From a virus: DNA of 51,375 bases. Location: IMG/VR virus record IMGVR_UViG_3300046808_000281, positions 1 to 51,375 of that record; one strand, given 5' to 3'. Position 1 is the stretch's first letter. Each line of letters begins with the position of its first letter. The notes beneath the pieces were generated by a model, which was not told where the DNA came from, did not search any database, and saw only the letters and a list, made by a program, of their open reading frames with translations. Both the position numbers and the translations under genes were made by a program. Of this stretch, positions 92 through 13,321 are shown in pieces.

Positions 92-481
92 ATGGCATCA
101 CTTTATGAACCCTCAACCTTTGGCTCAGACCCAGCCATTATCAAGTGGCAGGTCGTCCGTGGCGACACAGCCCAAGTTCGCATAGAATTCGTGGAAGCAG
201 ACGAAACCACACCTATAGACACTTCTACGTGGACCTACATTGCAAGTGCATATGATCCAAGGCTTGATACTATTGATGAGCTTGATGTCGCACCAGGAAA
301 TGGATTTGTAGTTGTAACAGCGTCTGCAGATACAACAAAATTATGGGGTGCAGGATATGGTTCTGTTATTGCAGAACTACTATTTGACCTTCAGGTTACA
401 AAGCAGGATGGAACTATTTGGACACCAGTACTTGGTAACATCGTAGTTCTTGGTGATGTCACATACGGAGGAAGTTTATGA
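92..481 (+). CDS. Ig-like baseplate/tail-fibre protein (BppU-N-like fold), module A copy 1
   Basis: A 129-residue beta-rich protein with the pattern VVRGDTAQVRIEF near the N-terminus, a central segment of alternating hydrophobics, and a LLFDLQVT...GTIWTPVLGNIVVLGDVT end. The same plan (RGDT..F / VYDV or FDVQ / TVxVxxxVT) recurs in the proteins at 1182-1553 and 5070-5471, so the three are paralogues. The pattern resembles the N-terminal Ig-like domain of lactococcal-type upper baseplate proteins; this is family-level recognition, not a search result. It probably connects or decorates the adhesion apparatus. It overlaps the collagen-like gene by 4 nt (ATGA), implying translational coupling. Confidence 0.6.
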   Translation: MASLYEPSTFGSDPAIIKWQVVRGDTAQVRIEFVEADETTPIDTSTWTYIASAYDPRLDTIDELDVAPGNGFVVVTASADTTKLWGAGYGSVIAELLFDLQVTKQDGTIWTPVLGNIVVLGDVTYGGSL

Positions 482-1182
482 CAGTAATTAAGATTGTCCC
501 TATGCCAGGAAGTCCAGGGCCACAGGGAGAGCGTGGAGAGCGTGGATTGCAAGGTAATCCAGGAGAAAATGGACTAGCAGGTGCATCTGCATATCAGATA
601 GCAGTTGGAAATGGATTCTCAGGATCAGAAGCACAGTGGATTGCTTCACTTGTTGGTCCAAAGGGTGATAAGGGAGATACTGGCAACGCTGGAAGTCCTG
701 GATTGACTGGTGCATCAGCTTATCAGATTGCTATTTCAAATGGTTTTTCAGGATCAGAAGCAGAATGGCTAGAATCTCTAAAGGCTAGCCAGACATCTGG
801 AACATACACACCAGTTCTTTCTGGTACTGGCTTGACGGTAACAAATAATCAAGCAACAGGACATTACACAGTAATCAACAACATAGTTTTCTTTAGAATC
901 AACGTTCCACTTACATATGTTTCTAATTTTGGAACTGGTGCTTATAGCTTATCTCTACCTTTTGCTCCTGCTGCAGATTTTATTGTTCGTGACGGAGTCA
1001 TTAACGACGGTTCAACATCAACCAAGTACACATTGAGTCTACACGGAACTGCCTCAAATACATCTGCAAGCCTAAAGTACACTGCAGGAAGCCAGTTCTA
1101 CGATGTTGACTATAACTCACCTTTTGTGCTAGCTACAGGAGACACTTTTATTATTAGCGGAACATACGAGAGGCAGGCATAA
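478..1182 (+). CDS. Collagen-like tail fibre protein
   Basis: A 234-residue fibre protein. Residues 11-35 form about eight uninterrupted Gly-X-Y triplets and residues 60-78 about six more. Several prolines (GSP, GNP, GSP) stand in the Y position, the position hydroxylated in animal collagens. Each collagen block is followed by a copy of the same unit, SAYQIA..NGFSGSEA.W (residues 37-54 and 80-97), a motif common in phage fibre proteins. The last 130 residues look like a globular beta-rich head that could trimerise or bind receptor. GGAGGAAG at 467-474 is a possible ribosome site. The nearby 2OG oxygenases (10659-13321) make post-translational hydroxylation a testable idea. Confidence 0.75.
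   Translation: MTVIKIVPMPGSPGPQGERGERGLQGNPGENGLAGASAYQIAVGNGFSGSEAQWIASLVGPKGDKGDTGNAGSPGLTGASAYQIAISNGFSGSEAEWLESLKASQTSGTYTPVLSGTGLTVTNNQATGHYTVINNIVFFRINVPLTYVSNFGTGAYSLSLPFAPAADFIVRDGVINDGSTSTKYTLSLHGTASNTSASLKYTAGSQFYDVDYNSPFVLATGDTFIISGTYERQA
586..768 (+). repeat. Direct repeat encoding SAYQIA..NGFSGSEA.W units
   Basis: Two copies of an approximately 54-bp coding unit, at 586-639 and 715-768, separated by the second collagen block. Nucleotide differences between the copies are mostly synonymous or conservative, suggesting an old duplication kept for protein function. Confidence 0.6.
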
Positions 1183-1553
1183 TGGCATATCCAGCAACAT
1201 ACGACATCAAGTACTACAGAGGAGATACTCTAGAATTTAGAATCTTCCCAAAGAATGCATCTGGTGCAGCCTTTGACCTAAGTACATTCAATACTGCAAA
1301 GTTTACACTAGCTGATGCTAGAGGTGACGGGGCGACAAGACTAAATGGTTTTGCTGAGATTAGAACAGATTCTACGAATAATCTTTCTTACATTATTTGT
1401 GCAATTCTTCCAGGTGTTGGAACACAGCTATCACCAGACACTCAATATGTTTATGACGTTGAGATATCTAAGGCTGGAACTCCATATCCATATGTTTATA
1501 CTTTGGCTACTGGAACTGTAACAGTAACAGATCATGTTAGTGGTGCAATATAA
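1182..1553 (+). CDS. Ig-like baseplate/tail-fibre protein, module A copy 2
   Basis: 123 residues, paralogous to the products of 92-481 and 5070-5471. It has YYRGDTLEFRIF at the N-terminus, a central FTLADAR strand, then YVYDVEIS..G and TGTVTVTDHV at the end. The start ATG overlaps the preceding TAA (TAATG) and its own stop overlaps the next ATG the same way, so it is translated as part of a coupled chain. Probably a structural connector in the receptor-binding complex. Exact position in the virion cannot be told from sequence. Confidence 0.6.
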   Translation: MAYPATYDIKYYRGDTLEFRIFPKNASGAAFDLSTFNTAKFTLADARGDGATRLNGFAEIRTDSTNNLSYIICAILPGVGTQLSPDTQYVYDVEISKAGTPYPYVYTLATGTVTVTDHVSGAI

Positions 1554-2137
1554 TGGCAGATGTGGCAAGCACAATATCATCTATTGATCTTAATGTTCTT
1601 AGTGGTCCAACTACGATTGAGCTAGCTGTTGACTATGGTCAGCGTGGAGATAGAGGTAGTCTAATTCTTTATGGACAGGGAAAGCCAGCCCTTGTGTCTT
1701 TGCCAACTACCCCAGCAGTTTATGACATGTACGTTAATCTGTTGCCTTCTGATGATCAGTATCAGTGGGTATATCAATACATTTCACAACCATCTGGCTA
1801 TGGTTGGAAGCCATTATTTAAGCTAAATCCAAATACATACAGCGGAAATTCTATACTGTCTTTTGTAAATGGCTCATCTGAAATCTGGGTTCCAGTAGTT
1901 TCAGTAACTGGTGGAGATATTGTTACATCAAGCATCACTTCTGGAAGCTTTAATGTCCAACACACAGTTGTTGCACAAAATCCAGTAGCGTCTTCAGTTT
2001 CTATTGGAGACATTACACGATCGCCAGATGACATTCTGGCTCTGCCAATAACAATAAAGGCAGCAGAGTTTATTGGTGGCGAATGGGCACTGGTATCTGG
2101 AGAAAAACAAGTACACCTATTCATTACTATGGTATAA
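1553..2137 (+). CDS. Hypothetical virion structural protein
   Basis: 194 residues, not recognised. The sequence is beta-rich and low in charge, with aromatic-rich stretches (YQWVYQYIS; GYGWKPLFKL) like small domains in phage fibres. Its place inside the TAATG-coupled adhesion module supports a structural role. The last codons, ATG GTA TAA, form part of the extended -10 promoter TGGTATAAT for the next gene, so the stop codon is embedded in a promoter. Confidence 0.5.
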   Translation: MADVASTISSIDLNVLSGPTTIELAVDYGQRGDRGSLILYGQGKPALVSLPTTPAVYDMYVNLLPSDDQYQWVYQYISQPSGYGWKPLFKLNPNTYSGNSILSFVNGSSEIWVPVVSVTGGDIVTSSITSGSFNVQHTVVAQNPVASSVSIGDITRSPDDILALPITIKAAEFIGGEWALVSGEKQVHLFITMV

Positions 2138-2138
2138 T
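2130..2138 (+). promoter_or_regulatory. Extended -10 promoter TGnTATAAT
   Basis: TGGTATAAT, in which TAA of the preceding gene is part of the hexamer. The predicted start near 2145 would still leave part of the GGAGAGGG ribosome site (2141-2148) ahead of the ATG at 2155. Confidence 0.6.
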
Positions 2139-2154
2139 TTGGAGAGGGTGAAAA

Positions 2155-2610
2155 ATGGCTGCACAAAACATTGATGGTACCGCTAATGGTACAGGTATTT
2201 ACAACACAAAGGTTCCAGGATACGAAGATCCTGCAGACATTCAGGCTGCCCTGAAGCTTTTTCTTTATGGAGATGCCAACTTTAATGCAGCTGACCCTGC
2301 TAATGCTGTAAACCTTCCAACGCACTCTATTGCTAGATACATGAAGGCCATGCAGGATGAAATTGATACACTTCAATCTATTGGCATTGGCTCTTACTAT
2401 GGAGCTGAGCCAACATCTCCAGTGGTTGGACATGTTTGGATGTCCTCAGAGGCATCGACATTGGTTCCAACAGCAGCTGTAGCTATTTATCAGGCCACTG
2501 AGCCTGTGTCTGGACTAACAAATGGACTACTCTGGATTGATTCAAGTGGTGCAACACCAGTATTGAAGGTTTATGACGGATCTACAAGCACATGGAAGGT
2601 GGTTGCATAA
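2155..2610 (+). CDS. Tail fibre/baseplate accessory protein
   Basis: 151 residues. The N-terminal half is helical (DIQAALKLFLYGDANFN, then IARYMKAMQDEIDTLQ), which could be a short trimeric coiled segment. The C-terminal half holds two repeats of a small beta unit (GHVWMSSE...AIYQ and GLLWIDSS...KVYDGSTSTWK), typical of phage fibre linkers of the form 'G.lW.D....l.vydG..W'. The ribosome site GGAGAGGG lies at 2141-2148. Likely structural; no enzymatic motif is seen. Confidence 0.55.
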   Translation: MAAQNIDGTANGTGIYNTKVPGYEDPADIQAALKLFLYGDANFNAADPANAVNLPTHSIARYMKAMQDEIDTLQSIGIGSYYGAEPTSPVVGHVWMSSEASTLVPTAAVAIYQATEPVSGLTNGLLWIDSSGATPVLKVYDGSTSTWKVVA

Positions 2611-3257
2611 TGGCAGATATTAATTCAGAAGCAAAAGTAGCTTATATTTTTGATGGTACAACTTGGAGACCTATCGCAGGTGCTGGAACAGTAAACCCAT
2701 CAGCTGACTATCAATGGACTGGCGATCACTCATACTCTTCAGCTTCAACAGTAACTTTTGAAACTGTTGTAAAGGATAAAGCAGGTATAAATAACTTTTC
2801 AAACCCATCTGCTAGAGATGCTGCACTGCCATCTCCAGTTACTGGCTTGGTTGCTTTTGTTGCACAGGCTGCAGACGGATCAACTATTAACGACATACAG
2901 TTTTATGACGGAACAAGCTGGAGATCTTCAAATGACTCTGCAATTCTAAAGGTTCCAAGTGTATCTGCAAATGGTTACACTCTCGTCCCAGCAGACGCAG
3001 GTAACAGCCTTAGAATCTCTGAATCAACAGGAACAACAATCTACATTCCAGAAAATGCTTCAAACTCATTTAAGGTTGGTCAGAAGGTAGAGATTCTTAG
3101 AATGGGTACTGGAGATGTTCTTGTGGCACCACTTACTGGAAACGTAACTCTTAATAGCAAGAATGGAAACAGAAAGATTGCTGCACAATACTCTGGTGCC
3201 GTTCTTACCAAGATTGATACAAATTCCTGGCTACTTATCGGTGATTTGACGGCTTAG
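2610..3257 (+). CDS. Fibre tip protein with C-terminal domain shared with the large fibre
   Basis: 215 residues from the ATG that overlaps the previous stop (TAATG). An upstream in-frame ATG at 2592 is possible but less likely. Short 'FDGTTWRPI' and 'FYDGTSWRS' units precede a C-terminal domain of about 95 residues ending SWLLIGDLTA. This matches, strand for strand, the end of the large fibre at 8173-9786 (TWVVYGDLSA), with conserved YTL, TTIYIP/TTLTIP, VGxxxxIL and TGxVxxA positions. The shared domain probably forms a distal tip or trimerisation head. GGAAGGTGG just before the ATG can serve as ribosome site. Confidence 0.6.
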   Translation: MADINSEAKVAYIFDGTTWRPIAGAGTVNPSADYQWTGDHSYSSASTVTFETVVKDKAGINNFSNPSARDAALPSPVTGLVAFVAQAADGSTINDIQFYDGTSWRSSNDSAILKVPSVSANGYTLVPADAGNSLRISESTGTTIYIPENASNSFKVGQKVEILRMGTGDVLVAPLTGNVTLNSKNGNRKIAAQYSGAVLTKIDTNSWLLIGDLTA

Positions 3258-3265
3258 GGGTATAG

Positions 3266-3748
3266 ATGCTAGGTTCATTTGGTTTATGGGCATCTTCCAA
3301 GGGAATGAGAGTAGTCTCAGACCTTGTTGGGATGACTCGTACAGATGCTACCGCTAAAATTATTGCAGATGGTCTTGTCCTTGGAACAGAGACCCCACAG
3401 CAATTTACAAATTCTGCAGATGAGTCTAAACACAATAAGATTGTAGATCAAACTCCAGATGCAGGAGTCCAGGCACCATATGAATCTGCTGTAGATGTTG
3501 TTTATGGTGTCTTTAGCTTTAGCGTATTTGGTGTATTTGGATTTGTTCCAGCATTTGGTGTGTTTGGATTTACGCCTACGTTTAACGTATTTAGCTTTAC
3601 TGTTTTCAATGTATTTAGCTTTACACCATTTACCGTTTTTGGATTCTCATTCTCAGTATTTACCTTTACACCAACGTTTGCTGTGTTTGGATTCTCGTTT
3701 AGCGTATTCAGCTTTACTCCAACGTTCTCAGTATTTGGTTTTAGATAG
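3266..3748 (+). CDS. PASTA-domain protein with FG-rich phenylalanine repeat tail
   Basis: 160 residues. Residues about 15-79 match the PASTA fold (VVSDLVGMTRTDATAKI..., ...VDQTPDAGVQAPYESAVDVVYG), a module that in bacterial penicillin-binding proteins and Ser/Thr kinases binds peptidoglycan fragments. The remaining ~80 residues are an extreme repeat of xVFxF[T/V/S]Px F-type units (for example GVFGFVPAF, GVFGFTPTF, SVFSFTPTF) ending SVFGFR. Phenylalanine alternates with small residues, as in a beta strand with one aromatic face. A second protein (9807-10601) carries the same tail and the same last residues. Probably a cell-wall-binding virion protein; the tail's role is unknown. The 3' end overlaps the convergent endolysin by 8 bp. 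Confidence 0.65.
   Translation: MLGSFGLWASSKGMRVVSDLVGMTRTDATAKIIADGLVLGTETPQQFTNSADESKHNKIVDQTPDAGVQAPYESAVDVVYGVFSFSVFGVFGFVPAFGVFGFTPTFNVFSFTVFNVFSFTPFTVFGFSFSVFTFTPTFAVFGFSFSVFSFTPTFSVFGFR
3503..3745 (+). repeat. Coding repeat for VFGF/VFSF units (copy 1)
   Basis: About eight degenerate units of 21-27 bp encode [G/S/N/T/A]VF[G/S/T]F, often followed by [T/V]P[T/A]F. Codons vary between units (gtatttggattt, gtgtttggattt, gtttttggattc, gtgtttggattc), so selection is acting on the peptide, not on recent DNA duplication. Confidence 0.8.
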
Positions 3749-4301
3749 AATCAATATATCTCACGTAAGAGATATCACTATAGTTTCCACCAAATCGCTT
3801 TATGTCGTCAATGGCTGTTCTTTTTCCAGGGGCAGGAGAGTGAATCATCTTGCCATTTCCAATGTATATACCAACGTGGTATGCCTTTGAACTATTTTCA
3901 TAATGGAATGCAACAATATCCCCAAGAGCAGGTTCTGAGACTTTTTCTCCACCAAGTGCCTGAGCAGTTGCTCTATGTTCCAAGCTAATACCAAGTTGCT
4001 CATAGAACCACATGGTCAATCCAGAACAATCCCACCCAGATGGAGTGTGTCCAGAAAATACATATGATGTTTTATTTACATAGCTCTCTAGCTTGGATAT
4101 TGCTTTAGATATCTTCTTTGCATTTGCAGCCTTTTCAGCTTTTTCAATGCTAGCTGCTAAAAGCTTTTGTGCTTTTACAGAATCATATTCTGTTACGTAT
4201 TCGTAACGAACTGGATCTTCAGCTTTAGCTGGGGTTATAGAAGTTGTTAGTAAAAGTAGTGTAGATGTGGCAAAGCCAGCAATTTTAATAGTTTTATTCA
4301 T
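3741..4301 (-). CDS. Secreted NlpC/P60 peptidoglycan endopeptidase (endolysin)
   Basis: 186 residues, the only minus-strand gene. It has a classic Sec signal peptide: MNK, a hydrophobic stretch over residues 7-22, and cleavage predicted after AKA at 27. A short helical linker (residues 40-75) precedes an NlpC/P60 domain with catalytic Cys92 (DCSGL), His142 (YHVGIYIG) and likely third polar residue His154. Family members cut the peptide stems of peptidoglycan. With its own export signal it can reach the wall without a holin, as in other secreted endolysins; alternatively it is a host-derived wall hydrolase. AAGGAGG stands 7 nt before the ATG. A consensus minus-strand promoter lies about 180 nt upstream, giving a long leader. 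Confidence 0.88.
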   Translation of the reverse strand: MNKTIKIAGFATSTLLLLTTSITPAKAEDPVRYEYVTEYDSVKAQKLLAASIEKAEKAANAKKISKAISKLESYVNKTSYVFSGHTPSGWDCSGLTMWFYEQLGISLEHRATAQALGGEKVSEPALGDIVAFHYENSSKAYHVGIYIGNGKMIHSPAPGKRTAIDDIKRFGGNYSDISYVRYIDSI

Positions 4302-4536: not shown

Positions 4537-5049
4537 ATGGCAACTGGAAGATCAAATAACTACAACCTGCCGTTTCCACTAGCAGTAGATGCTGTAAACG
4601 TTCACGGTGACATAAAGAGTCTGACTGAAAGACTTGATGCCGTTCTACCTCAAGCATCATACGTAGACATTCCAGTAAAGAATGTTTCATCTGAACTTAT
4701 TCCAGGCGGATACCCAGTTACAATTTCTGGACACGATGGAACAAACGTCTTGATTCAGAAAGCAACAGCATCAACAACTACATCAATCCTTGGACTAACA
4801 AGAAGTGATATTGATGTGTCTGGTTCTGGAGTTGTTGTTGTAGCTGGAGTGATTAATGGAATAAATACTACATCATATTCTCCAGGAGCAATCCTTTACG
4901 TTGCTCAAAATGGTGGATTGACTGCAACTTTAGACGGAAGCCAGGGTACAGCAATTGCTACAGTTGTATACCCAGCAGTAAATGGTGCAATAATTGTTGG
5001 ATCAAAGTCCAATGCAACATGGGGATCGCTTAAAGCTGGTCTTTCATAA
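4537..5049 (+). CDS. Virion decoration/fibre protein with DUF2190-like beta domain
   Basis: 170 residues. A short helical start (VHGDIKSLTERLDAVLP) is followed by a beta domain of the type seen in phage decoration and short fibre proteins. Its strands run PVTISGHDG, VLIQKATAS, ILGLTRSDIDVSGSGVVVVAGVINGI, SPGAILYVAQNGGLTA, GTAIATVVYPAVNGAIIVG. Such domains provide capsid or fibre decoration rather than catalysis. It opens module B and is read from a leaderless promoter divergent from the endolysin. Family assignment is by pattern only. Confidence 0.55.
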   Translation: MATGRSNNYNLPFPLAVDAVNVHGDIKSLTERLDAVLPQASYVDIPVKNVSSELIPGGYPVTISGHDGTNVLIQKATASTTTSILGLTRSDIDVSGSGVVVVAGVINGINTTSYSPGAILYVAQNGGLTATLDGSQGTAIATVVYPAVNGAIIVGSKSNATWGSLKAGLS

Positions 5050-5054
5050 TTTAA

Positions 5055-5063
5055 TGATATAAT
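5055..5063 (+). promoter_or_regulatory. Extended -10 promoter TGATATAAT, leaderless start
   Basis: TGATATAAT ends 6 nt before the ATG at 5070; no ribosome site intervenes. It is the same geometry as at 4522, 25520 and 50790. Confidence 0.75.
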
Positions 5064-5069
5064 AAAACT

Positions 5070-5471
5070 ATGGCCGTTCTTCGTACAACAACTACTACTT
5101 CAACTCAAGCAGTAAATGATGCTGGTGAGATTGAGGTTGGAGCTACCCCACCAGTTATCAGGTGGACAGTCGTAAAGGGTGATTATGCATCCTTCAGATG
5201 CTATGTAGAAGACGATAGCGGAACCCCAATCGTCCCAGCGGACTATGTGATCAAGGCAGACTTTAGGCGTGGTTCAGAAAAGCTATTCCATGTGACACCA
5301 AGTCAAACAGAATTTGACAATGCTGGAGAGTTTACAGTAGTTCTTTTGCCAGCACAGTGCAAGCAGCTACAGACTGGTGATGTTTTTGACGTTCAGCTCT
5401 CCGATGCTGTCGTAGTTTGGACGGTATGCCGTGGAATTATGACTGTAATCGCAGAGGTAACTGATCTATAA
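5070..5471 (+). CDS. Ig-like baseplate/tail-fibre protein, module B copy
   Basis: 133 residues. After a Thr-rich N-terminus (RTTTTTSTQAV) it follows the same plan as the proteins at 92-481 and 1182-1553: VIRWTVVKGDYASFRCYVED, a central ADFRRGSEKL, then GDVFDVQLSDAVVVWTVCRGIMTVIAEVTDL. It is closest to the 92-481 copy by its 'I[K/R]W.VV[R/K]GD' motif. Each adhesion module therefore has at least one copy. The start comes directly from a leaderless promoter. Its stop overlaps the next ATG (TAATG). Confidence 0.6.
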   Translation: MAVLRTTTTTSTQAVNDAGEIEVGATPPVIRWTVVKGDYASFRCYVEDDSGTPIVPADYVIKADFRRGSEKLFHVTPSQTEFDNAGEFTVVLLPAQCKQLQTGDVFDVQLSDAVVVWTVCRGIMTVIAEVTDL

Positions 5472-5731
5472 TGGCATCAACTACAATATCAGAATATCCA
5501 TCCAATCTTTTTTTAGTACAAAAAACAATCAACCCAATAGCTGAGGTTGACAGTATAAATCATGTTAATTTTGTAAATGCTAAAAATGTAAACTATGTCT
5601 CAAGAATAGATGTAGTAGAGCATCTACCATTTAAAGTTAGATTTTCAGCAATAGGTTTAGACACCTATGATAGGTCAAGTCCTGCTGCAGTTGGCATAGC
5701 TATTATTGGCTACAGCAACTACATTCTTTAA
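5471..5731 (+). CDS. Small hypothetical structural protein
   Basis: 86 residues, not recognised. It ends in a compact hydrophobic pattern (HLPFKVRFSAIGLDTY..., AVGIAIIGYSNYIL). It is translationally coupled to the preceding Ig-like gene through a TAATG overlap, suggesting the two products are made together, perhaps as partners. Confidence 0.5.
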   Translation: MASTTISEYPSNLFLVQKTINPIAEVDSINHVNFVNAKNVNYVSRIDVVEHLPFKVRFSAIGLDTYDRSSPAAVGIAIIGYSNYIL

Positions 5732-5748
5732 AATGCTTAAATATACTG

Positions 5749-5754
5749 TATAAT
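5749..5754 (+). promoter_or_regulatory. -10 promoter, leaderless start
   Basis: TATAAT directly preceded by TG ends exactly 6 nt before the ATG at 5761; there is no ribosome site. Confidence 0.7.
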
Positions 5755-5760
5755 ATAAAC

Positions 5761-6207
5761 ATGGCTAGAACTACAATCCCTGCAGTAAAAACACTTTTTG
5801 AGACTGGAGATCGTCCTACTCAGAGTGATTACGAGGCATTAATTGACACGTCTACAGCTCAGGCAACTGACCTTGGAACATTTGGCAATAATGAAAATAC
5901 GATTACAGGCATTGAGAGCTCAACAATTGTTGATAGCTTTGATGCAACTGCATGGAGAATGATCAAGTATCTTGTTTCAATTTCCAAGGTAACAAATGGA
6001 GATAACAAGTTCTATGCAACAGAGTTGACCGTTCTTTGCGATGCTGACGATATCAGCGTCACAGAATACGGAACAATTGACAATGATGGGAATATGGGCA
6101 CCGTTAGCGTCTCTCGCACTGGGAATACAGTCAGTTTGGTTGTAACTCCAGATGCAATAATTCGACCAGTTACTGTACGTTTTGCACGTATGGGACTTAA
6201 GGCGTAA
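5761..6207 (+). CDS. Tail fibre protein with C-terminal domain shared with the next gene
   Basis: 148 residues. An N-terminal helical piece (TIPAVKTLFETGDRPTQSDYEALIDT) resembles the attachment end of many phage fibre proteins. The last ~80 residues (KYLVSISKV...TELTVLCDADDISVTEYGTIDNDG...VTVRFARMGLKA) align with the last ~75 of the fibre at 6226-7626 (KVMITLDSADNVAITEYAIVGTNG...). The shared domain is likely the distal beta-sandwich that closes a trimeric fibre. Short length suggests an adaptor or a small co-fibre. Confidence 0.55.
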   Translation: MARTTIPAVKTLFETGDRPTQSDYEALIDTSTAQATDLGTFGNNENTITGIESSTIVDSFDATAWRMIKYLVSISKVTNGDNKFYATELTVLCDADDISVTEYGTIDNDGNMGTVSVSRTGNTVSLVVTPDAIIRPVTVRFARMGLKA

Positions 6208-6225
6208 TATACAAGGAGATAAAAC

Positions 6226-7626
6226 ATGGCAACAGTCACTAAAGACTTTAAGGTTAAGAGTGGTCTGATTGTTGAAGGTGCTACAGCTACCGTCAATAAC
6301 CACGACATTCTAACCAAGAAGCAAGATGACCAAGATTACATTGTCAACCTTATTGGTGGTACAGCAACCTCAGCAAATACTCCAAATACCGTTGTAAAGC
6401 GTGACGGAAATGGAGACTTTTCAGCAGGAACTGTAACAGCAGATTTGGTTGGTGACGTAACTGGTAACGTAGTAGGAAACGTAACTGGTGATGTAACTGG
6501 TACAGTTTCAAGCTTGGCAAATCACGATACAGATGATCTTGCAGAGGGTGCAAACCTTTACTTCACAGCACAGAGGGCAGTAACTGCTAACACTGGTCTT
6601 TGGGATAACGTAGGTTCTGCAGATGCAGCTCAGACAGCAGCACAGGGATATGCAGATGGCGTAGCTCTTACTGCAGAAAACAATGCAAAGACATATGCAG
6701 ACGGTTTAGCCGTTAACTATGACGCAGCAGGAGCTGCAGCAGCTGCACTTACAAGTGCAAACACTTACACAGATACAGCTGTCGCAAGCCTAGTTGATTC
6801 AGCACCTGCAATGCTTGATACTCTTAATGAGTTGGCAGCTGCAATTGCTGATAATCCAAACTATGCAACAGATGTAACAAACCTTATTGCAACAAAGGCA
6901 GACACAACATATGTAGACTCTCAGGATTCTGCAACTTTGACATCTGCTAATAGCTATGCTGATGGACTTGCAGTCAACTATGACGTAGCAGGTGCAGCAA
7001 GCACAGCTCAGACCAATGCAGAGGCATATGCTTCTAACTTGGTCGGACAGGAGGTGATTGACCGTGACGCTGCAATTTCAACTGCTATCAATGCACTTGA
7101 TACAGACGATATTGAAGAGGGCACAGTCAATCTATATTTCACAAATCAGAGAGCTATTGATGCCGTAGGTGGAACCATTGGTGACGCTATAGACTTGCTG
7201 ACAACAGACGACATTGAAGAGGGAACCTCCAACCTCTACTTTACAGATGCTCGTGCTGTGTCAGCTCTTGAGGCAGTAGTTCCAAACTTCACAGAGATTG
7301 ATATCAACTCTGTAGCAACACAGGTTGCAGCTACTCAAACAGTAGCTACTGCAAGCCAGGTAGTTGCACACCAGTTTGCGAACACAACACACCGCTCAGC
7401 TGAATACACAGTTAAGGTAGCCTATGGAACTCACACAGAGCTTTCAAAGGTAATGATTACACTTGACTCAGCAGACAACGTAGCAATTACTGAGTATGCA
7501 ATTGTTGGAACTAACGGTTCTGCATCAACAATTTCTGCAGATGTAAATGCTGGTAATGTAAGATTGCTTGTTACAACAGCTAACAATAACTCTATCGTTA
7601 CCGTAGTAGGAACACTTATCGCTTAA
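6226..7626 (+). CDS. Long tail fibre with GDVTG and NLYFT repeats
   Basis: 466 residues. The N-terminal ~25 residues (MATVTKDFKVKSGLIVEGATATVNN) resemble those of the 7649 product (MATVNKDFKVKNGIQVAG), probably a common attachment sequence. A run of 'GDVTGNVVGNVTGDVTG' (residues ~77-93) and three 'DDIEEGTxNLYFT..RA' units follow, both hallmarks of long fibres in T4-like and many aquatic phages. 'YADGLAVNYD' units and a 'LDTLNELAAAIAD' segment also occur. The C-terminal ~75 residues match those of the previous gene. AAGGAG precedes the ATG. Probable receptor-binding fibre. Confidence 0.75.
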   Translation: MATVTKDFKVKSGLIVEGATATVNNHDILTKKQDDQDYIVNLIGGTATSANTPNTVVKRDGNGDFSAGTVTADLVGDVTGNVVGNVTGDVTGTVSSLANHDTDDLAEGANLYFTAQRAVTANTGLWDNVGSADAAQTAAQGYADGVALTAENNAKTYADGLAVNYDAAGAAAAALTSANTYTDTAVASLVDSAPAMLDTLNELAAAIADNPNYATDVTNLIATKADTTYVDSQDSATLTSANSYADGLAVNYDVAGAASTAQTNAEAYASNLVGQEVIDRDAAISTAINALDTDDIEEGTVNLYFTNQRAIDAVGGTIGDAIDLLTTDDIEEGTSNLYFTDARAVSALEAVVPNFTEIDINSVATQVAATQTVATASQVVAHQFANTTHRSAEYTVKVAYGTHTELSKVMITLDSADNVAITEYAIVGTNGSASTISADVNAGNVRLLVTTANNNSIVTVVGTLIA

Positions 7627-7648
7627 GATAATTAAAAGGAGTATGTAG

Positions 7649-8110
7649 ATGGCAACAGTAAACAAGGATTTCAAGGTAAAGAATGGAATCCAAGTAGCAG
7701 GTAGTGGTGTCTTTGGTGGCCCAATAGTTGCTGCTGATCCAACTGATGATACGCACGTTGTTACACGTGGATATCTAAATGCACAGGCTGGTGGCGTTAC
7801 TGTTGCTTCTACTGCTCCTGAATCACCAACAGCTGGAAAGCTATGGTTTGACACTGTAACAAAAAGAATTAACGTCTATGACGCAACAGATGGATGGCTA
7901 ACAGTAGCTAATGTTGATGATACTCTAAATGTTCCTCAACACATTCATGATACGTCAGTTGGCGGTACTGGATTGGTCACAACAACATTCCGTGAGGGTG
8001 GCTCAATCCCAGCAAGCCCTATGTCTAGTGGAATTGATGGCGGTAGCCCATCATCAACAGAGTTTACTCTCATATTTGATGGTGGATCAGTTACTGACAA
8101 TTTTAACTAA
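7649..8110 (+). CDS. Tail fibre-associated protein
   Basis: 153 residues. It begins with the same DFKVK.G motif as the 6226 fibre, then carries a small fibre unit (STAPESPTAGKLWFDTVTKRINVYDATDGWLTV) similar to units in 2155-2610. The rest is polar and Gly/Ser-rich (EGGSIPASPMSSGIDGG). A shared N-terminus suggests that it docks at the same baseplate site as the long fibre or forms part of the same bundle. Ribosome site AAAGGAG precedes the ATG. Confidence 0.5.
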   Translation: MATVNKDFKVKNGIQVAGSGVFGGPIVAADPTDDTHVVTRGYLNAQAGGVTVASTAPESPTAGKLWFDTVTKRINVYDATDGWLTVANVDDTLNVPQHIHDTSVGGTGLVTTTFREGGSIPASPMSSGIDGGSPSSTEFTLIFDGGSVTDNFN

Positions 8111-8119
8111 ATAATAGGA

Positions 8120-8125
8120 TATAAT
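8120..8125 (+). promoter_or_regulatory. -10 promoter for the large fibre gene
   Basis: GGATATAAT gives a predicted start near 8132 and a leader of about 40 nt before the ATG at 8173, with GAGGAG at 8159-8164 as ribosome site. Confidence 0.5.
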
Positions 8126-8172
8126 ATAAGTATTTGGTAGTAACGTCTACCATACAAGAGGAGCAAATAAAT

Positions 8173-9786
8173 ATGGCAACAAGAATGCAGCAACGCAGAG
8201 GAACTGCAGCACAGTGGACCTCAGCTAACCCTGTCCTAGCAGCAGGTGAAATTGGATTTGAAACTGATACCAACAAGTTCAAGATTGGTGACGGAACTAC
8301 TAACTGGGCATCGCTCAAGTACTTCATGAACCTTGATGAGCTTGATATTGATGTTGACGGTTTTGTAAAGGATGAAGAGAAGGGAGCTGCAAATGGTGTT
8401 GCCACACTTGACAGCTCAGCACAGGTTCCAGTTACTCAGTTGGCTAACCTAATTCAAAATGCTCCTAATACTCTTGACACCCTTAATGAGATTGCTTCGG
8501 CTATTACTGATGCAAATGGTATTGTAAATACTGCAATTGAGACAGCGATTGATGCTGAGGTTATTGCTAGAAATACGGCAATCACAACTGCAAATGATAC
8601 TATTAGCACAAGAATCGATGGTGTTGATACAAGAATTGACGGTATCGACACAAGAATCGATGGCGTTGATGCAACAATCCTTGCACTAACAACAGACGCA
8701 GTCCCTGAAACTGTAAATAATGAATACTTTACAATTGAGAAGGCACAGGATGCAGTAGCATCGATGATTTCTGGTGATGCAGGAGTCGTAGCAACATATG
8801 ATGACACAGCTAATTCTCTAGTTATCTCTGTAGATGCTACAATTGCCACTACAACTGGCGTATCTACAGCCATCTCTGACCACAATTCAGATACAACAAA
8901 CGTACATGGAATTGCTGACACATCAGTTCTAGCAACAGCTACTGACGTAGCAGATGCAGTATCTGCACATAACACTGACACAACAGGTGTACATGGAATT
9001 GCTGATACAGCAGAGCTAGAGACACAAACTGGTGCCCAAGCAAAGGCAGACAATGCACTTGCAGCAGCAGAAACTTCAGCAGCAGGACTTTACGCTACTA
9101 AGGTTGCACCAACAATTACTGGAAATGCAACAGTTGAGAACATTACAGTAACTGGAGACCTTGTAGTTCAGGGTACAACAACAACAGTTGCTGCAACTAA
9201 TCTAGAAGTTACAGACTCTTTGATTTATCTTGCTGCAGAGCAGTTCAATACAGATACATTGGATATCGGTATCTTTGGTGCATACGGTGATGCACAGGCA
9301 GGACACTTCCACACAGGTATTGTCCGTGATGCAACAGATGGAAAGTGGAAGCTTATCTCTGGTGCCGATGAGCCAACAGACAGCCACGTAGACTTTTCTA
9401 CTGGAACATATGATACTCTTAAGCTTGGTGCAGTCGAATTTGCAGACGGTACTCAGGCTAAGCAGGGTGTTCCGTCAATAACAACAATTCTACAAAAGAC
9501 AGCATCATATACACTTTCAGATCTAGCAGAGCGTGACTCTTTGATCGAAGTTGGATCGTCTTCAGCAACTACTCTAACAATTCCTGCAGACGCAGACGTA
9601 AACTATCCAGTAGGAACTACTCTAGATATTTTACAGACATCAACTGGACAGGTTACAATTGCTGGTGCAAATGGAGTTACTGTAAATGCAACACCAGGCC
9701 TAAAGCTTAGAACCCAGTGGTCATCTGCAACTCTTATGAAGAGAGCAGCAAACACATGGGTAGTTTATGGCGACCTATCAGCTTAA
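8173..9786 (+). CDS. Large tail fibre with Mtd-N-like N-terminus and phage tail repeats
   Basis: 537 residues from the ATG at 8173, chosen because GAGGAG lies about 8 nt before it. A TTG at 8134 lies upstream in frame but lacks a ribosome site. Residues 1-50 (RRGTAAQWTSANPVLAAGEIGFE..., FKIGDGTTNWASL) match the N-terminal domain of major tropism determinant-type fibres. A predicted helical stretch includes three DTRIDGI/V repeats. Two 'HN[S/T]DTTxVHGIADT' units follow, the phage tail repeat type. A domain near residue 310 (TVENITVTGDLVVQGTTTTV) is common in chaperoned T4-like fibres. The last ~95 residues match the end of 2610-3257. Likely main host-recognition fibre. Confidence 0.75.
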   Translation: MATRMQQRRGTAAQWTSANPVLAAGEIGFETDTNKFKIGDGTTNWASLKYFMNLDELDIDVDGFVKDEEKGAANGVATLDSSAQVPVTQLANLIQNAPNTLDTLNEIASAITDANGIVNTAIETAIDAEVIARNTAITTANDTISTRIDGVDTRIDGIDTRIDGVDATILALTTDAVPETVNNEYFTIEKAQDAVASMISGDAGVVATYDDTANSLVISVDATIATTTGVSTAISDHNSDTTNVHGIADTSVLATATDVADAVSAHNTDTTGVHGIADTAELETQTGAQAKADNALAAAETSAAGLYATKVAPTITGNATVENITVTGDLVVQGTTTTVAATNLEVTDSLIYLAAEQFNTDTLDIGIFGAYGDAQAGHFHTGIVRDATDGKWKLISGADEPTDSHVDFSTGTYDTLKLGAVEFADGTQAKQGVPSITTILQKTASYTLSDLAERDSLIEVGSSSATTLTIPADADVNYPVGTTLDILQTSTGQVTIAGANGVTVNATPGLKLRTQWSSATLMKRAANTWVVYGDLSA

Positions 9787-9806: not shown

Positions 9807-10601
9807 ATGGCAGCAGGTAAAAGAGCAGGTAGACATGCTCAGCAGTCTAATGATTTTCTACAGCCACTAGCACCAATTAATATTGTTGCTACTGATGTCG
9901 GAACAAATAGGGCATATGATAATGGTGCTGCCTCTGTAGCATTTGGATTGCCTGCTAATTCTCCAGCTGCTACTTCTTATACTGTCACAGCATCAACTGG
10001 TCAGACAGCTACTGGATCGTCTTCACCTATTGTGGTCGCTGGTATTGCTACAGGTGCAACTCCAACATTTACTGTAACTGCAACAAACAGCTATGGGACA
10101 TCTAGTGCCTCTGATGCATCATCTGCAATTACAATCACAACTGTTCCAGCTGCACCAACTGGAGTAAGTGCATCTTCTCCATCTGGAGCAAACTATGATA
10201 CAGTTACTTGGACTGCACCAGCAAATGGTGGTAAAGCAATTAGCAATTACTACGTTACGTCTGATGACGGTAAGACAGCCAATACCTCTTCTACTTCTGT
10301 AAATATTACTCAGGAGCAAGGTACAGCTCAAACATATACAGTTTATGCAGACAATGCTAACGGTAGATCTGCAGCATCTGCTGCATCTGGAAGCGTAACA
10401 ACATTCTCATTCGTGCCATTCTCAGTATTTAGCTTCTTTGGGGTATTTAGCTTCTTTGGAGTGTTTGGGTTCGTGCCAACCTTTGGAGTATTCGGATTCG
10501 TGCCATTCTCAGTATTTGGTTTCTTTGGTGTGTTTGGATTCGTACCATCATTTGGTGTATTTGGATTCACCCCCTCATTCTCAGTATTCGGCTTTAGATA
10601 A
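9807..10601 (+). CDS. Fibronectin-III-like protein with FG-rich phenylalanine repeat tail
   Basis: 264 residues. Two Fn3/Ig-like domains (about residues 25-115 and 115-198) show the usual 'P.aPtgvsasspsg...vtWtaPanGGkaIsnYyV.s.dg' pattern. Residues 200-264 are a repeat tail of VFGF/VFSF units with FF, VPTF, VPSF and TPSF linkers, ending SVFGFR, exactly like the product of 3266-3748. One in two to three residues of the tail is Phe. Fn3 domains are common on phage virions, where they bind carbohydrate. The tail could stick the two proteins together or to a membrane or wall. Ribosome site GAGGA precedes the ATG. Confidence 0.65.
   Translation: MAAGKRAGRHAQQSNDFLQPLAPINIVATDVGTNRAYDNGAASVAFGLPANSPAATSYTVTASTGQTATGSSSPIVVAGIATGATPTFTVTATNSYGTSSASDASSAITITTVPAAPTGVSASSPSGANYDTVTWTAPANGGKAISNYYVTSDDGKTANTSSTSVNITQEQGTAQTYTVYADNANGRSAASAASGSVTTFSFVPFSVFSFFGVFSFFGVFGFVPTFGVFGFVPFSVFGFFGVFGFVPSFGVFGFTPSFSVFGFR
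10404..10598 (+). repeat. Coding repeat for VFGF/VFSF units (copy 2)
   Basis: About eight units encode FSVFSFF, GVFGFVPTF, GVFGFVPF and similar. The unit differs slightly from copy 1 in having FF and VPF linkers, but the last unit and final Arg are the same. Confidence 0.8.
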
Positions 10602-10630: not shown

Positions 10631-10658
10631 ATATACATACATAGAACGGAGTATGAGG

Positions 10659-11318
10659 ATGTATAAGGACCAAACTCCCCTACGAAGCATTAGCAAAACA
10701 ACGCAGGGGCACAAATTTTTTGAACGCTATCTTGATAATGATCTAGATGTTTTAGCAAAAGAGCTACAGGCTAGATATGAGCTTATTGAACAGGCTAAGA
10801 TTCCAGGGGTAACCCCAGTAAGCCCGTTTGAGGCATGGAAAGATTCTAACAGTATTTCAACAATGAAGTGGAGACAATATAATGTCTTCCAATTCCACAT
10901 TGATGGAATCTATGAGCTATACAAGGCCGTTGGCGATATGGTTAGAGAAGCCTGTGACCACTACGAGCTTGATTTTGATGAGCAAAAGTTTATGATTCAG
11001 GGATGGTTTAATATAAACCACTCTGGTAACGGAAAGCTTAACTGGCATGAGCATGGTGGTCCTGGAGCACCAGATTTCCACGGGTATTATTCAGTTGCAG
11101 CAGAGCCTTCTTCAACACACTACATTGTTTTTGATAATGAGGTTGAGAATATCAATAAGAATAATCGTGCCATCCTGTCTGAGATGGGTCACCCACACGC
11201 AATGGGAGACTGGGACTGGGATGGACCAAGAATCACGGTTGCATATGACGTAACTCCACTGGAGTACTTGAAGCGTGGAGGACACTCTCAAGAGCAGCAC
11301 TGGATCCCATTGAGATGA
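10659..11318 (+). CDS. Putative 2OG-Fe(II) oxygenase, paralogue 1
   Basis: 219 residues from the second ATG, which is 7 nt after GGAG; the ATG at 10653 is only 1 nt after it. After a divergent N-terminal half (HKFFERYLDNDLD...) comes a double-stranded beta-helix-like core: QGWFNIN, then His130-Glu-His132, HGYYSVAAEPSSTHY, LSEMGHPH (His178/His180), and Arg191 in RITVAYDV. The order H...H...R fits 2OG-Fe(II) oxygenases of the PF13759-like type, but the first motif reads HEH, not the usual HxD, so the metal ligands need testing. First of three tandem paralogues; its stop overlaps the next ATG (ATGA). Substrate unknown. Confidence 0.6.
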   Translation: MYKDQTPLRSISKTTQGHKFFERYLDNDLDVLAKELQARYELIEQAKIPGVTPVSPFEAWKDSNSISTMKWRQYNVFQFHIDGIYELYKAVGDMVREACDHYELDFDEQKFMIQGWFNINHSGNGKLNWHEHGGPGAPDFHGYYSVAAEPSSTHYIVFDNEVENINKNNRAILSEMGHPHAMGDWDWDGPRITVAYDVTPLEYLKRGGHSQEQHWIPLR

Positions 11319-11992
11319 TCGCTATGACAAAGCCACCACAGAAGTTTTTTGAAAGATATGTCGATGTGACACAAGAAGAGTTGGACAGTCTTTATGATTT
11401 TTGTGTTGCTCGTGAAAAGGACATGCTAGATGGAAAGTTCCCAGGCATAGAGGCAGATGAGGCAAAATCATACCACGAAAAGGGTGGTATGATGACTAGA
11501 ACTCTTAGCAAGTATAATGTATTTCAATTACATCATCCAGTCATCAGAAAGCTTCTTGGCTCTGTAAGAGATATGACAAAAGAAGCATGTCAGTATTATG
11601 GCAAAGACTTTGAGTCAGAGGCATATTACATTCAGGGATGGATAAACATAGAGCCAGCTGACTATGGAGATGAAGATTTTTATGCCCAGACTATGATTGA
11701 GCCAAACCTTCATGAACATTGTGGTGGCCTTGGGATGCCTGACCTACACGGATACTTTTCAGTATTTGCAGAGCCATCTGTAACTCATTACAGAATTGAT
11801 AAGGTAACTCCATTTGAAAATGTTAATAAAAACTTCAGAGCTGTTTTGTCAGAAACTGGACACCCACACACACGTGGATGGTGGGGTAACAAAGAAAAGC
11901 GTAGAATAACCATTGCATACGATACTAGAAGTATTCATGATATTTCAAACGGAGAAGCTGGATTGGAGCAACATTGGATACCGCTAGTGTAG
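11315..11992 (+). CDS. Putative 2OG-Fe(II) oxygenase, paralogue 2
   Basis: 225 residues, tandem paralogue of the previous and following genes. Conserved points are FFERYVDV at the start, QGWINIEP, His133-Glu-His135, HGYFSVFAEPSVTHY, VNKNFRAVLSETGHPH (His183/His185) and Arg197 in RRITIAYDT, ending EQHWIPLV like paralogue 1 (EQHWIPLR). It starts at the ATGA overlap with paralogue 1; an ATG at 11324 is an alternative. The conserved C-terminal HWIPL suggests close common ancestry with paralogue 1. A short insert (about residues 115-128) before the HEH motif is its main difference. Confidence 0.6.
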   Translation: MIAMTKPPQKFFERYVDVTQEELDSLYDFCVAREKDMLDGKFPGIEADEAKSYHEKGGMMTRTLSKYNVFQLHHPVIRKLLGSVRDMTKEACQYYGKDFESEAYYIQGWINIEPADYGDEDFYAQTMIEPNLHEHCGGLGMPDLHGYFSVFAEPSVTHYRIDKVTPFENVNKNFRAVLSETGHPHTRGWWGNKEKRRITIAYDTRSIHDISNGEAGLEQHWIPLV

Positions 11993-12639
11993 TAAAAGAT
12001 CACAAATTTTTTGTCAGAGATCTGTCCATAGACCTTGAAAAACTAAAGGCTTGGACAATTGATCTTGACGATAGTATTAGATCTGGTAAGCTTGAGATAG
12101 GTGCTAGCAAAGAGATGCTAGATGTCTATCGTAACAGAACTTCTGGTGCTGGGACAGCTTTGCTCTCTCACTATAATATTTTTGAGATGAACAATCCAGA
12201 CCTGAATGTTCTTAAGAATGCAATCAACAATGCTTTGCTAGAGGCATGCGACTACTATGGCATAGACTATGACTCAGAAGAATGGTACCTGCACGGATGG
12301 TACAATAGAAATGATCAAGACGGCATGTGGGATGTATCACCTATTGACAATGAAGATAAGTGGCATGAGCACATGAATGGTGTTGGGGCTCCAGTATTCC
12401 ACGGTTACTACTGTGTAAATGCAGAGCCATCTGTAACAGTCTATAAAATATTTAAAAATCCAGAAAATATAAAAGTGAATGTCAATAAAAACAATAGGAT
12501 GATTCTTTCTGAAGTCGGACACCCACATGGAATGGGTAACTGGAGAGTTAGCGATCAAAGAATTACACTGGCATACGATGTAGCACCAAGAGCTTATATT
12601 GGTGATGAAGATGCAGAGACCTGGACAAGGCTAAACTAA
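11974..12639 (+). CDS. Putative 2OG-Fe(II) oxygenase, paralogue 3
   Basis: 221 residues, the most diverged of the three tandem copies. It keeps LHGWYNRND, His131-Glu-His133, HGYYCVNAEPSVTVY, VNKNNRMILSEVGHPH (His183/His185) and Arg196 in RITLAYDV, but lacks the HWIPL end. It overlaps the 3' end of paralogue 2 by 19 nt, and no later in-frame start precedes the conserved KFFVRDLS segment, so the overlap is real. Keeping three copies with identical presumed active-site residues argues for distinct substrates or partners, not decay. Confidence 0.6.
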   Translation: MDTASVVKDHKFFVRDLSIDLEKLKAWTIDLDDSIRSGKLEIGASKEMLDVYRNRTSGAGTALLSHYNIFEMNNPDLNVLKNAINNALLEACDYYGIDYDSEEWYLHGWYNRNDQDGMWDVSPIDNEDKWHEHMNGVGAPVFHGYYCVNAEPSVTVYKIFKNPENIKVNVNKNNRMILSEVGHPHGMGNWRVSDQRITLAYDVAPRAYIGDEDAETWTRLN

Positions 12640-12797
12640 TGAAAAACTGGCTTGTTAGAATAAAGTGTTTTATACTAGGACACAAAGTTATTGTTGGCAA
12701 TAAATGTCCAGTAACTGGTATTGTGAGGCTTGACTGTGAGTCATGTGGTGTATCTAACATGCCAAAGCATACAGACAAAGAGGGGATGTTTAGATGA
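12639..12797 (+). CDS. Small Cys-rich protein, DUF1660-like zinc-binding candidate
   Basis: 52 residues, read between paralogue 3 and the next oxygenase with a TAATG overlap on the left and an ATGA overlap on the right. The sequence has IKCFILGHKVI near the start, then KCPVT and DCESCGV. Cys10, Cys23, Cys33 and Cys36 with His15 could bind a zinc ion. The 'C..fGHk...C' opening recalls small prophage DUF1660 proteins. Perfect packing between neighbours supports it as a real gene despite its size. Confidence 0.6.
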   Translation: MKNWLVRIKCFILGHKVIVGNKCPVTGIVRLDCESCGVSNMPKHTDKEGMFR

Positions 12798-13321
12798 ATA
12801 AGACTGATGACATTAAATACATCAAAGGGTTTATGCCAAAGGATGTAGTAGATACCATCTTTGAGTATGCAAAGAAGTATGACTTAGAGTTCGATGAGTT
12901 TGGAAATCACGAAAAAGAATTCACTGTAAATGTATTCAAGAGATCTGATGAAGAGACAATGCATGTTAAGAATCTTGTAACTGAGTGGGGACTAAAGGTC
13001 TATGAGTTTGTTCTGGATACGTATGGTGGAGATTTTAAGTCATATGACCCAAACATGTCCCATATTGCTAGGTTTGAGCCAGGGTGGGGAATGCATGAGC
13101 ATTTTGATGCAAGCAAGCCAAATGATATTGCTACATTAATTTATATTAATAATAATTACTCTGGTGGAGACATATACTTCCCAGAATATGGTATTTCGCA
13201 TAAACCAGAGCCAGGAGACCTGCTAACTTTTCCAGACAATCCAGATTATGTGCATGGGGTAAGAGCAATATCTGATGGAATTCGTTACACAACTCCACGC
13301 TGGTTTACACGTATAGTATGA
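12794..13321 (+). CDS. Prolyl-4-hydroxylase-like 2OG-Fe(II) oxygenase
   Basis: 175 residues with a complete canonical motif set: His103-x-Asp105 (HEHFDAS), His154 (DYVHGVRAI) and Arg164 (RYTTPRWF) for 2-oxoglutarate. The framework GGDIYFPEYGISHKPEPGDLLTFPD is the signature of the P4H-type beta-helix. Family members hydroxylate prolines or other side chains using Fe(II), O2 and 2-oxoglutarate. It closes a four-oxygenase cluster. A collagen-like fibre with Y-position prolines, encoded at 478-1182, is an attractive candidate substrate, but this is inference. The TGA stop contributes the TG of the weak promoter for the next gene. Confidence 0.85.
   Translation: MNKTDDIKYIKGFMPKDVVDTIFEYAKKYDLEFDEFGNHEKEFTVNVFKRSDEETMHVKNLVTEWGLKVYEFVLDTYGGDFKSYDPNMSHIARFEPGWGMHEHFDASKPNDIATLIYINNNYSGGDIYFPEYGISHKPEPGDLLTFPDNPDYVHGVRAISDGIRYTTPRWFTRIV

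Follow-up and report, generated by a model that had tools for sequence, protein, structure and literature searches.

In the genome of an uncultured virus, two proteins with different heads end in long, dense, uncharged arrays of aromatic residues. Tails of this kind occur in hundreds of related viruses, and two tails borne by a single genome are in most cases alike. The window analysed here is the whole stretch of 51,375 nucleotides (positions 1 to 51,375 of IMG/VR record IMGVR_UViG_3300046808_000281). Such matched aromatic tails on fibre proteins suggest an undescribed molecular glue, and a multivalent sticker array that would join the ends of two fibre modules is the most economical reading of the evidence presented below.

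An aromatic tail on a PASTA-domain protein

The first tail (positions 3503-3748, + strand) forms residues 80-160 of the 160-residue product of the ORF 3266-3748, its codons spanning 3503-3745 and the stop extending to 3748. The peptide, YGVFSFSVFGVFGFVPAFGVFGFTPTFNVFSFTVFNVFSFTPFTVFGFSFSVFTFTPTFAVFGFSFSVFSFTPTFSVFGFR, is of the VFxF type and ends in SVFGFR. As an earlier note made from the letters had described, it is built almost only of F (29 residues), V (13), S and T (10 each), G (8), and P (5), which account for 75 of its 81 residues. It contains seven FG dipeptides, and its phenylalanine content peaks at 16 per 40 residues, against a maximum of 7 in the other proteins of its neighbourhood and a background of 3.6% in the 22 surrounding proteins, with the two tails excluded. 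The tail follows a PASTA head (3266-3502, +) with a conserved N-terminal MLGSFGLWASSKGM motif. This domain assignment, also made in the note, is borne out by a match to Pfam PF03793 (8.5e-6; 26.1 bits versus a gathering cutoff of 23.2) and by Foldseek matches of the predicted fold to PknB PASTA4 (5e0y, E 1e-4) and to the PrkC PASTA domains. The monomer structure prediction that the note had proposed was informative for the head (AlphaFold pLDDT ~90) but gave no confident fold for the tail (~35). An AGGGG lies just 5' of the ATG of the ORF. Ten divergent PASTA heads were too variable to yield a usable scanning profile. Convergent with this gene and overlapping its stop is a gene for an NlpC/P60 peptidoglycan hydrolase (3741-4301, - strand; Pfam NLPC_P60, 5e-21), which separates the two fibre modules, lies in antisense orientation to them, and encodes a product with an apparent signal peptide. 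The hydrolase gene is present in some related cassettes and was not detected in three tail-bearing ones (L007, L130, L135).

A second tail on a fibronectin-III-like protein

The window holds a second aromatic tail (10404-10601, +), missed in the earlier note and attached to a different head. It is likewise of the VFxF type, ends in SVFGFR, and shares 74% DNA identity with the first tail over ~75 bases. The head of this protein (ORF 9807-10601, +; head 9807-10403) comprises two fibronectin-III-like (FN3-like) domains and bears an N-terminal AGRxxQxxNDFLxP motif. The head in the window itself shows no Pfam fn3 match, and the assignment comes from its homologues in five relatives (L094, L018, L054, L103, L113), which score 1e-7 to 1e-13. 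A Foldseek search with a related head recovered FN3 proteins of uncultured Caudovirales, which match it at 37-53% identity in BFVD/UniProt. Directly 3' of the FN3-tail gene (10653-12639), three proteins that are related to one another are encoded in tandem, all sharing invariant HEH, GHPH, and RIT motifs; the first of the three is also present in many related loci. By eye they resemble 2-oxoglutarate/Fe(II) oxygenases, with no match in Pfam and PDB searches; the product of the next gene (12794-13321) matches 2OG-FeII_Oxy_3 (8.5e-7).

Purifying selection on the tails

Of the 35 nucleotide differences that separate the first tail from its nearest orthologue (L129), 31 are at third codon positions; the dN/dS of this pair is 0.021. 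The ORF 3266-3748 therefore represents a translated protein, and chance or a wrong reading frame is ruled out for this tail by the same two measures. The earlier note had itself raised the possibility of an untranslated frame; its argument for selection at the level of the peptide, drawn from synonymous variation between repeat units, is upheld by this comparison. Across comparisons, dN/dS is 0.02-0.12 for the tail of the PASTA protein and 0.01-0.09 for that of the FN3 protein, versus 0.05-0.33 for the heads, and in every comparison the tail has a lower value than the head to which it is attached. Alignment of repeats at the amino acid level flatters the tail values in distant pairs, but the nearest pairs, which are free of gaps, still give 0.021 and 0.010. 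Purifying selection thus acts more strongly on the tail peptide than on the heads. The number of repeat units differs among relatives.

Conserved fibre modules and viral affiliation

Both tail genes are the last members of gene modules with conserved order. The first module (92-3257, +) consists of the genes 92-481, 478-1182 (collagen-like), 1182-1553, 1553-2137, 2155-2610, and 2592-3257, followed by the PASTA-tail gene; the product of 2592-3257 matches the minor tail protein family phrog_8780 (1.5e-14). The collagen repeat of 478-1182 (+) falls slightly under the Pfam cutoff, and its product has, besides a collagen-like GXY stretch, GSPGPQGERGERGLQGNPGENG, an AYQIA...GFSGSEA...W motif that is repeated in divergent form. 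The second module (4537-9786, +), defined by conserved order together with Pfam and PHROGs matches, comprises 4537-5049, 5070-5471, 5471-5731, 5761-6207, 6226-7626, 7649-8110, and 8134-9786, and ends in the FN3-tail gene. The product of 8134-9786 contains an Mtd_N domain (1.6e-16), and products of the module match tail-fibre PHROGs and, in Gordonia and Arthrobacter phages, minor tail proteins. In diverged genomes, the order runs 92, collagen-like, 1182, 1553, 2155, 2592, PASTA-tail, (NlpC/P60), and then 4537, 5070, 5471, 5761, 6226, 7649, 8134 (Mtd_N), FN3-tail, HxH-type proteins, 13337, and portal. Further, two relatives (L008, L123) have an aromatic tail joined by gene fusion to homologues of 2155-2610 and 2592-3257, and in a third (G065) the tail is borne by a 2592-like protein. 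On account of this conserved synteny, the fusions to minor-tail homologues, and the matches of neighbouring gene products to minor tail proteins, we assign the tailed proteins to the phage tail fibre/minor tail class. In the two fused proteins (L008, 6923-8737, -; L123, 3730-5865, +), long Thr-Pro spacers (TPTPTPTP) alternate with Cys-containing segments, and these stretches connect the minor-tail domains with the aromatic tail.

The closest cultured relatives are Streptomyces phages of the Stanwilliamsviridae, such as Faust and MindFlayer, which share ~45% identity in the portal and ~43% in the major capsid protein and have a similar order of head and tail genes. Unlike the virus studied here, these two phages showed no aromatic-rich tail in the genome parts examined. 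As the portal, the major capsid protein, and the flanking fibre genes all point in this direction, the virus is probably an actinophage related to the Stanwilliamsviridae, for which we infer an actinobacterial host.

A module of uncultured phages

A search of viral metagenomes with the repeat, which the earlier note had suggested, proved productive: a degenerate pattern spanning two units of the octapeptide matched at least 120 stretches in IMG/VR, and a nonapeptide version matched 30. With the FN3-like head of the window as the query, at least 497 confirmed viral relatives were recovered. These matches rule out the tail as an oddity of one phage, and the view that its composition is peculiar to this phage or to the PASTA head has to be given up. 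When 84,980 prokaryote genomes were searched with the same octapeptide pattern, only two matches emerged; the reading frame of one is riddled with stops, and that of the other looks antisense. Since neither of these is a genuine repeat array, a bacterial origin of the tail was rejected, and the module looks virus-specific, with no prophage trace. We found no model of the tail in Pfam, PHROGs, or NCBIfam and no description of such aromatic tails in targeted full-text literature searches. In INPHARED, DNA searches and searches with the heads gave no match, nor did a protein search with the tail, this last being a weak negative because the BLAST low-complexity filter masks such queries. Matches of the tail in the PDB (photosystem D2, glycogenin; E at least 0.15) were dismissed as compositional. 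The aromatic tail represents a large module, hitherto without a name, of the fibre proteins that uncultured phages encode.

Array chemistries and end modules

Among the best 80 of the at least 497 relatives with an FN3-like head, 79 carry an aromatic array after the head, and the remaining locus ends at the contig edge. At least five array chemistries follow these heads, including VFGFSP, PPFFPPFFPFFPPYFP, SFTPYAFTPYSFTP, YNFYNFYNYSNF, FCPAFCPSFCP, and GAFGFSP (in short form, VFGFSP, PPFFPPFF, SFTPYAFTP, YNFYNF, and FCPAFCP). In each measured class, aromatic residues make up a fraction of 0.30-0.50 at a mean spacing of 1.8-2.7 residues, charged residues ~1-2%, and Leu/Ile/Met less than 2%, while the spacer residues vary freely, the PPFF type reaching 36% proline. 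As these measurements stay constant while the spacers change, the conserved feature is a dense, uncharged aromatic array, and not FG, a beta repeat, or general hydrophobicity. The FG dipeptide, in particular, is ruled out as the key feature by the VFNF, PPFF, and YNFY types, which lack it; likewise, the single beta strand with one aromatic face that the earlier note had envisaged is not general, given the proline content of the PPFF type.

The arrays terminate in one of several end modules, namely an FxFR-type stop (SVFGFR, KVFSFR, FYWFSR, PPRFGFRY), NFAPWG, a short Cys-rich tip, or, in other genomes, a Hint/intein-like domain. A profile of the last (A3) run against the PDB matched a bacterial intein-like domain (2lwy, E 3e-8) and several inteins. 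These Hint domains occur in two forms, one with an N-terminal Cys and a terminal His-Asn, and the other with Ser in place of Cys and a C-terminus that is degenerate (THDG, VFDR), which suggests that proteins otherwise alike carry either a putatively active or an inactive version. The Cys-rich tips, seen after PPFF arrays in several loci (L169, L185, L188, L193, and others), are ~25 residues long, e.g., GCSGCIRSYCWQACPGCCGSCGC, and are a possible disulfide or metal-binding lock. In three loci (L183, L186, L220), the PPFF array is connected to the Cys-rich tip by a stretch made up entirely of Gly-Val dipeptides, VGVGVGVGVGVGVG. The locus L168 (G046, 63254-64941) encodes adjacent FN3 paralogues, both ending in a YNFYNFYN array and FYWFSR; these arrays are Tyr/Asn based and devoid of proline, unlike all other classes. 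In the NFAPWG class (L104, 2854-3927, -; L012, L024, L114), two aromatic arrays of the PASTA protein flank a W/C-rich insert, WSEWSQWSIGEWGPWGECEADGYKRQYRTYTRTRTRT, which is reminiscent of thrombospondin type 1 repeats.

Matching of tails within a genome

Matching was assessed in 22 contigs, dereplicated and each encoding one tail on a PASTA head and another on an FN3 head; 19 of them were scorable for end class. The set was found via VFxF patterns and is thus biased in repeat type, but not in end class. The end class of the two tails agrees in 17 of the 19, whereas 20,000 permutations gave a mean of 5.7 and a maximum of 14. The motif distance between tails is 0.423 within a genome versus 0.554 when permuted, a difference that is also significant inside end classes. 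A partial Mantel test, which controls for relatedness via head distances only, gave r = 0.43, with none of 5,000 permutations as high. In another 23 contigs, scanned in a class-neutral way, two tailed proteins occurred together in five, and each of the five pairs was matched; one of these pairs has the PPRFGFRY ending on two unrelated heads, and another (G046) is weaker evidence, as its members are neighbouring FN3 paralogues. Within a genome, then, tails usually agree in both repeat type and end module even though their heads differ. In most contigs combining PPFF arrays with Cys-rich tips, however, the FN3 protein is the only aromatic-tailed protein within ~19 kb, and hence a glue between two proteins would not be universal.

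Proposed cohesion and competing explanations

Of the activities proposed in the earlier note, cohesion in the manner of FG nucleoporins is the best surviving one, because repeat types that are unrelated all retain the aromatic density and the charge depletion but not the spacers; what does not survive is the role of the FG dipeptide itself. We tentatively propose, at somewhat short of an even chance, that the tails are cohesive C-terminal aromatic sticker arrays that couple fibre proteins, FG- or prion-like in action, with no homology to either claimed. The cohesion, the identity of the partners, and the location of the tails in the virion are what we infer. The arrays would lack a single stable fold as monomers and would cohere through Phe/Tyr contacts, as do FG nucleoporin and prion-like domains, gluing the module 1 protein with the PASTA head to its module 2 counterpart with the FN3 head, or copies of either protein to one another. 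Peptidoglycan-binding and FN3 heads would thereby be displayed together, and the end module, be it the FxFR stop, NFAPWG, the Hint/intein-like domain, or the Cys-rich tip, would cap the array or covalently lock it. The AlphaFold models, made for single chains with alignments of 8-18 sequences, give tail pLDDT values of 35-46 overall and no confident fold. Such values would fit disorder without proving it, and would equally fit an assembly invisible to single-chain prediction.

The known systems nearest to such arrays also differ from them. The FG domains of Nup98 are charge-depleted, with approximately one FG per 12 residues, and their cohesion is abolished by Phe to Ala changes (PMC8938434). 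The first tail of the window resembles them in charge depletion, Phe richness, and FG density (7 in 81), but its Phe density is far higher, ~1 in 2.8 residues, and it has neither long spacers nor Leu. The tail family as a whole does not set FG, FxFG, or GLFG in long polar spacers, its aromatic residues being spaced at 1.8-2.7. Prion-like sticker-and-spacer low-complexity domains share with the tails the retention of aromatic stickers amid variable spacers, while the tails are far denser in aromatics and are borne on phage fibre heads. Tail or virion proteins of the cultured jumbo phages NCTB, Erwinia Yoloswag, and Yersinia fHe-Yen9-02 carry C-terminal Hint domains homologous to some of the end modules, but combine them with collagen-like and Ig-like regions and have no aromatic array.

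A common third partner, either a host surface or another phage protein, would produce the same matching as a glue between two proteins, as would gene conversion between the two tail loci. Accordingly, the main rival is that both tails see a common external ligand: the exposed array would be an adhesin for a host surface, for lipid or cell-wall material of the host, or for hydrophobic particles, and the tails of a genome would match because they meet the same host. This explanation, which we consider unlikely though a serious contender, accounts for the matching equally well and is in keeping with the C-terminal position of the tails, their variable end modules, and the PASTA and FN3 nature of the heads. 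Against it, receptor-binding tips usually diversify, yet in each protein conservation is highest in the tail; moreover, the array chemistry changes, with only the aromatics being retained. A more elaborate form of the cohesive sticker array, which we regard as doubtful, is a virus-specific cohesive material, in which lineage-specific arrays (VFGF, PPFF, FTPY, YNFY) would bind only like arrays, constituting a low-complexity code among the fibre proteins of one virion that is then locked by the Hint or Cys-rich module.

It is improbable that the VFxF tails form an ordered fibre, i.e., a homotrimeric beta-helix or a stacked beta-solenoid shaft with a Phe core, comparable to T4 gp5. The triple-stranded beta-helix of gp5 is built of VxGxxxxx octapeptides with N/D and E/K ladders and a small hydrophobic core (PMC4576200). 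The regular VFGFSPFG type formally fits this pattern, and for one regular octapeptide tail (L116) AlphaFold places one 4-residue strand in each 8-residue unit, at a pLDDT of ~45. Such regular octapeptides are confined to a sub-type in other genomes; the tails of the window are irregular, with unit spacings of 3 to 9 residues. The PPFF tails, with their 36% proline, and the YNFY tails cannot adopt such a fold, and the almost uncharged tails have no counterpart of the charged ladders.

More improbable still is a membrane-active tail, inserting into the host membrane at entry or lysis with the aid of the PASTA head and the NlpC/P60 enzyme. Octanol-scale values are favourable (best 19-residue segment ~-10 for VFxF and ~-17 for PPFF), and the hydrolase gene adjoins that of the first tail. 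However, Leu/Ile/Met are nearly absent, unlike in ordinary transmembrane or fusion segments, the spacers are rich in Pro/Gly/Asn, and NlpC was not detected in the three tail-bearing cassettes mentioned above; membrane insertion, also raised in the earlier note, is therefore not favoured. Finally, that the tails serve no specific purpose and are a by-product of DNA slippage or of mobile repeats that became attached to whatever genes were convenient fits their repetitiveness and variable unit number, but is very improbable, being already contradicted by the selection tests (the third-position bias and a dN/dS near 0.02) and at odds with the fixed positions of the tail genes in diverged genomes.

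Implications

Viruses with aromatic-tailed fibres recur in metagenomes, and their arrays constitute a natural sequence series, with stickers fixed and spacers variable, on which sticker-and-spacer theory, and protein adhesives as well, could readily be tested. If the tails are indeed cohesive sticker arrays, phages would have put the principle of the nuclear pore and of condensates, namely, multivalent aromatic contacts, on extracellular fibres.
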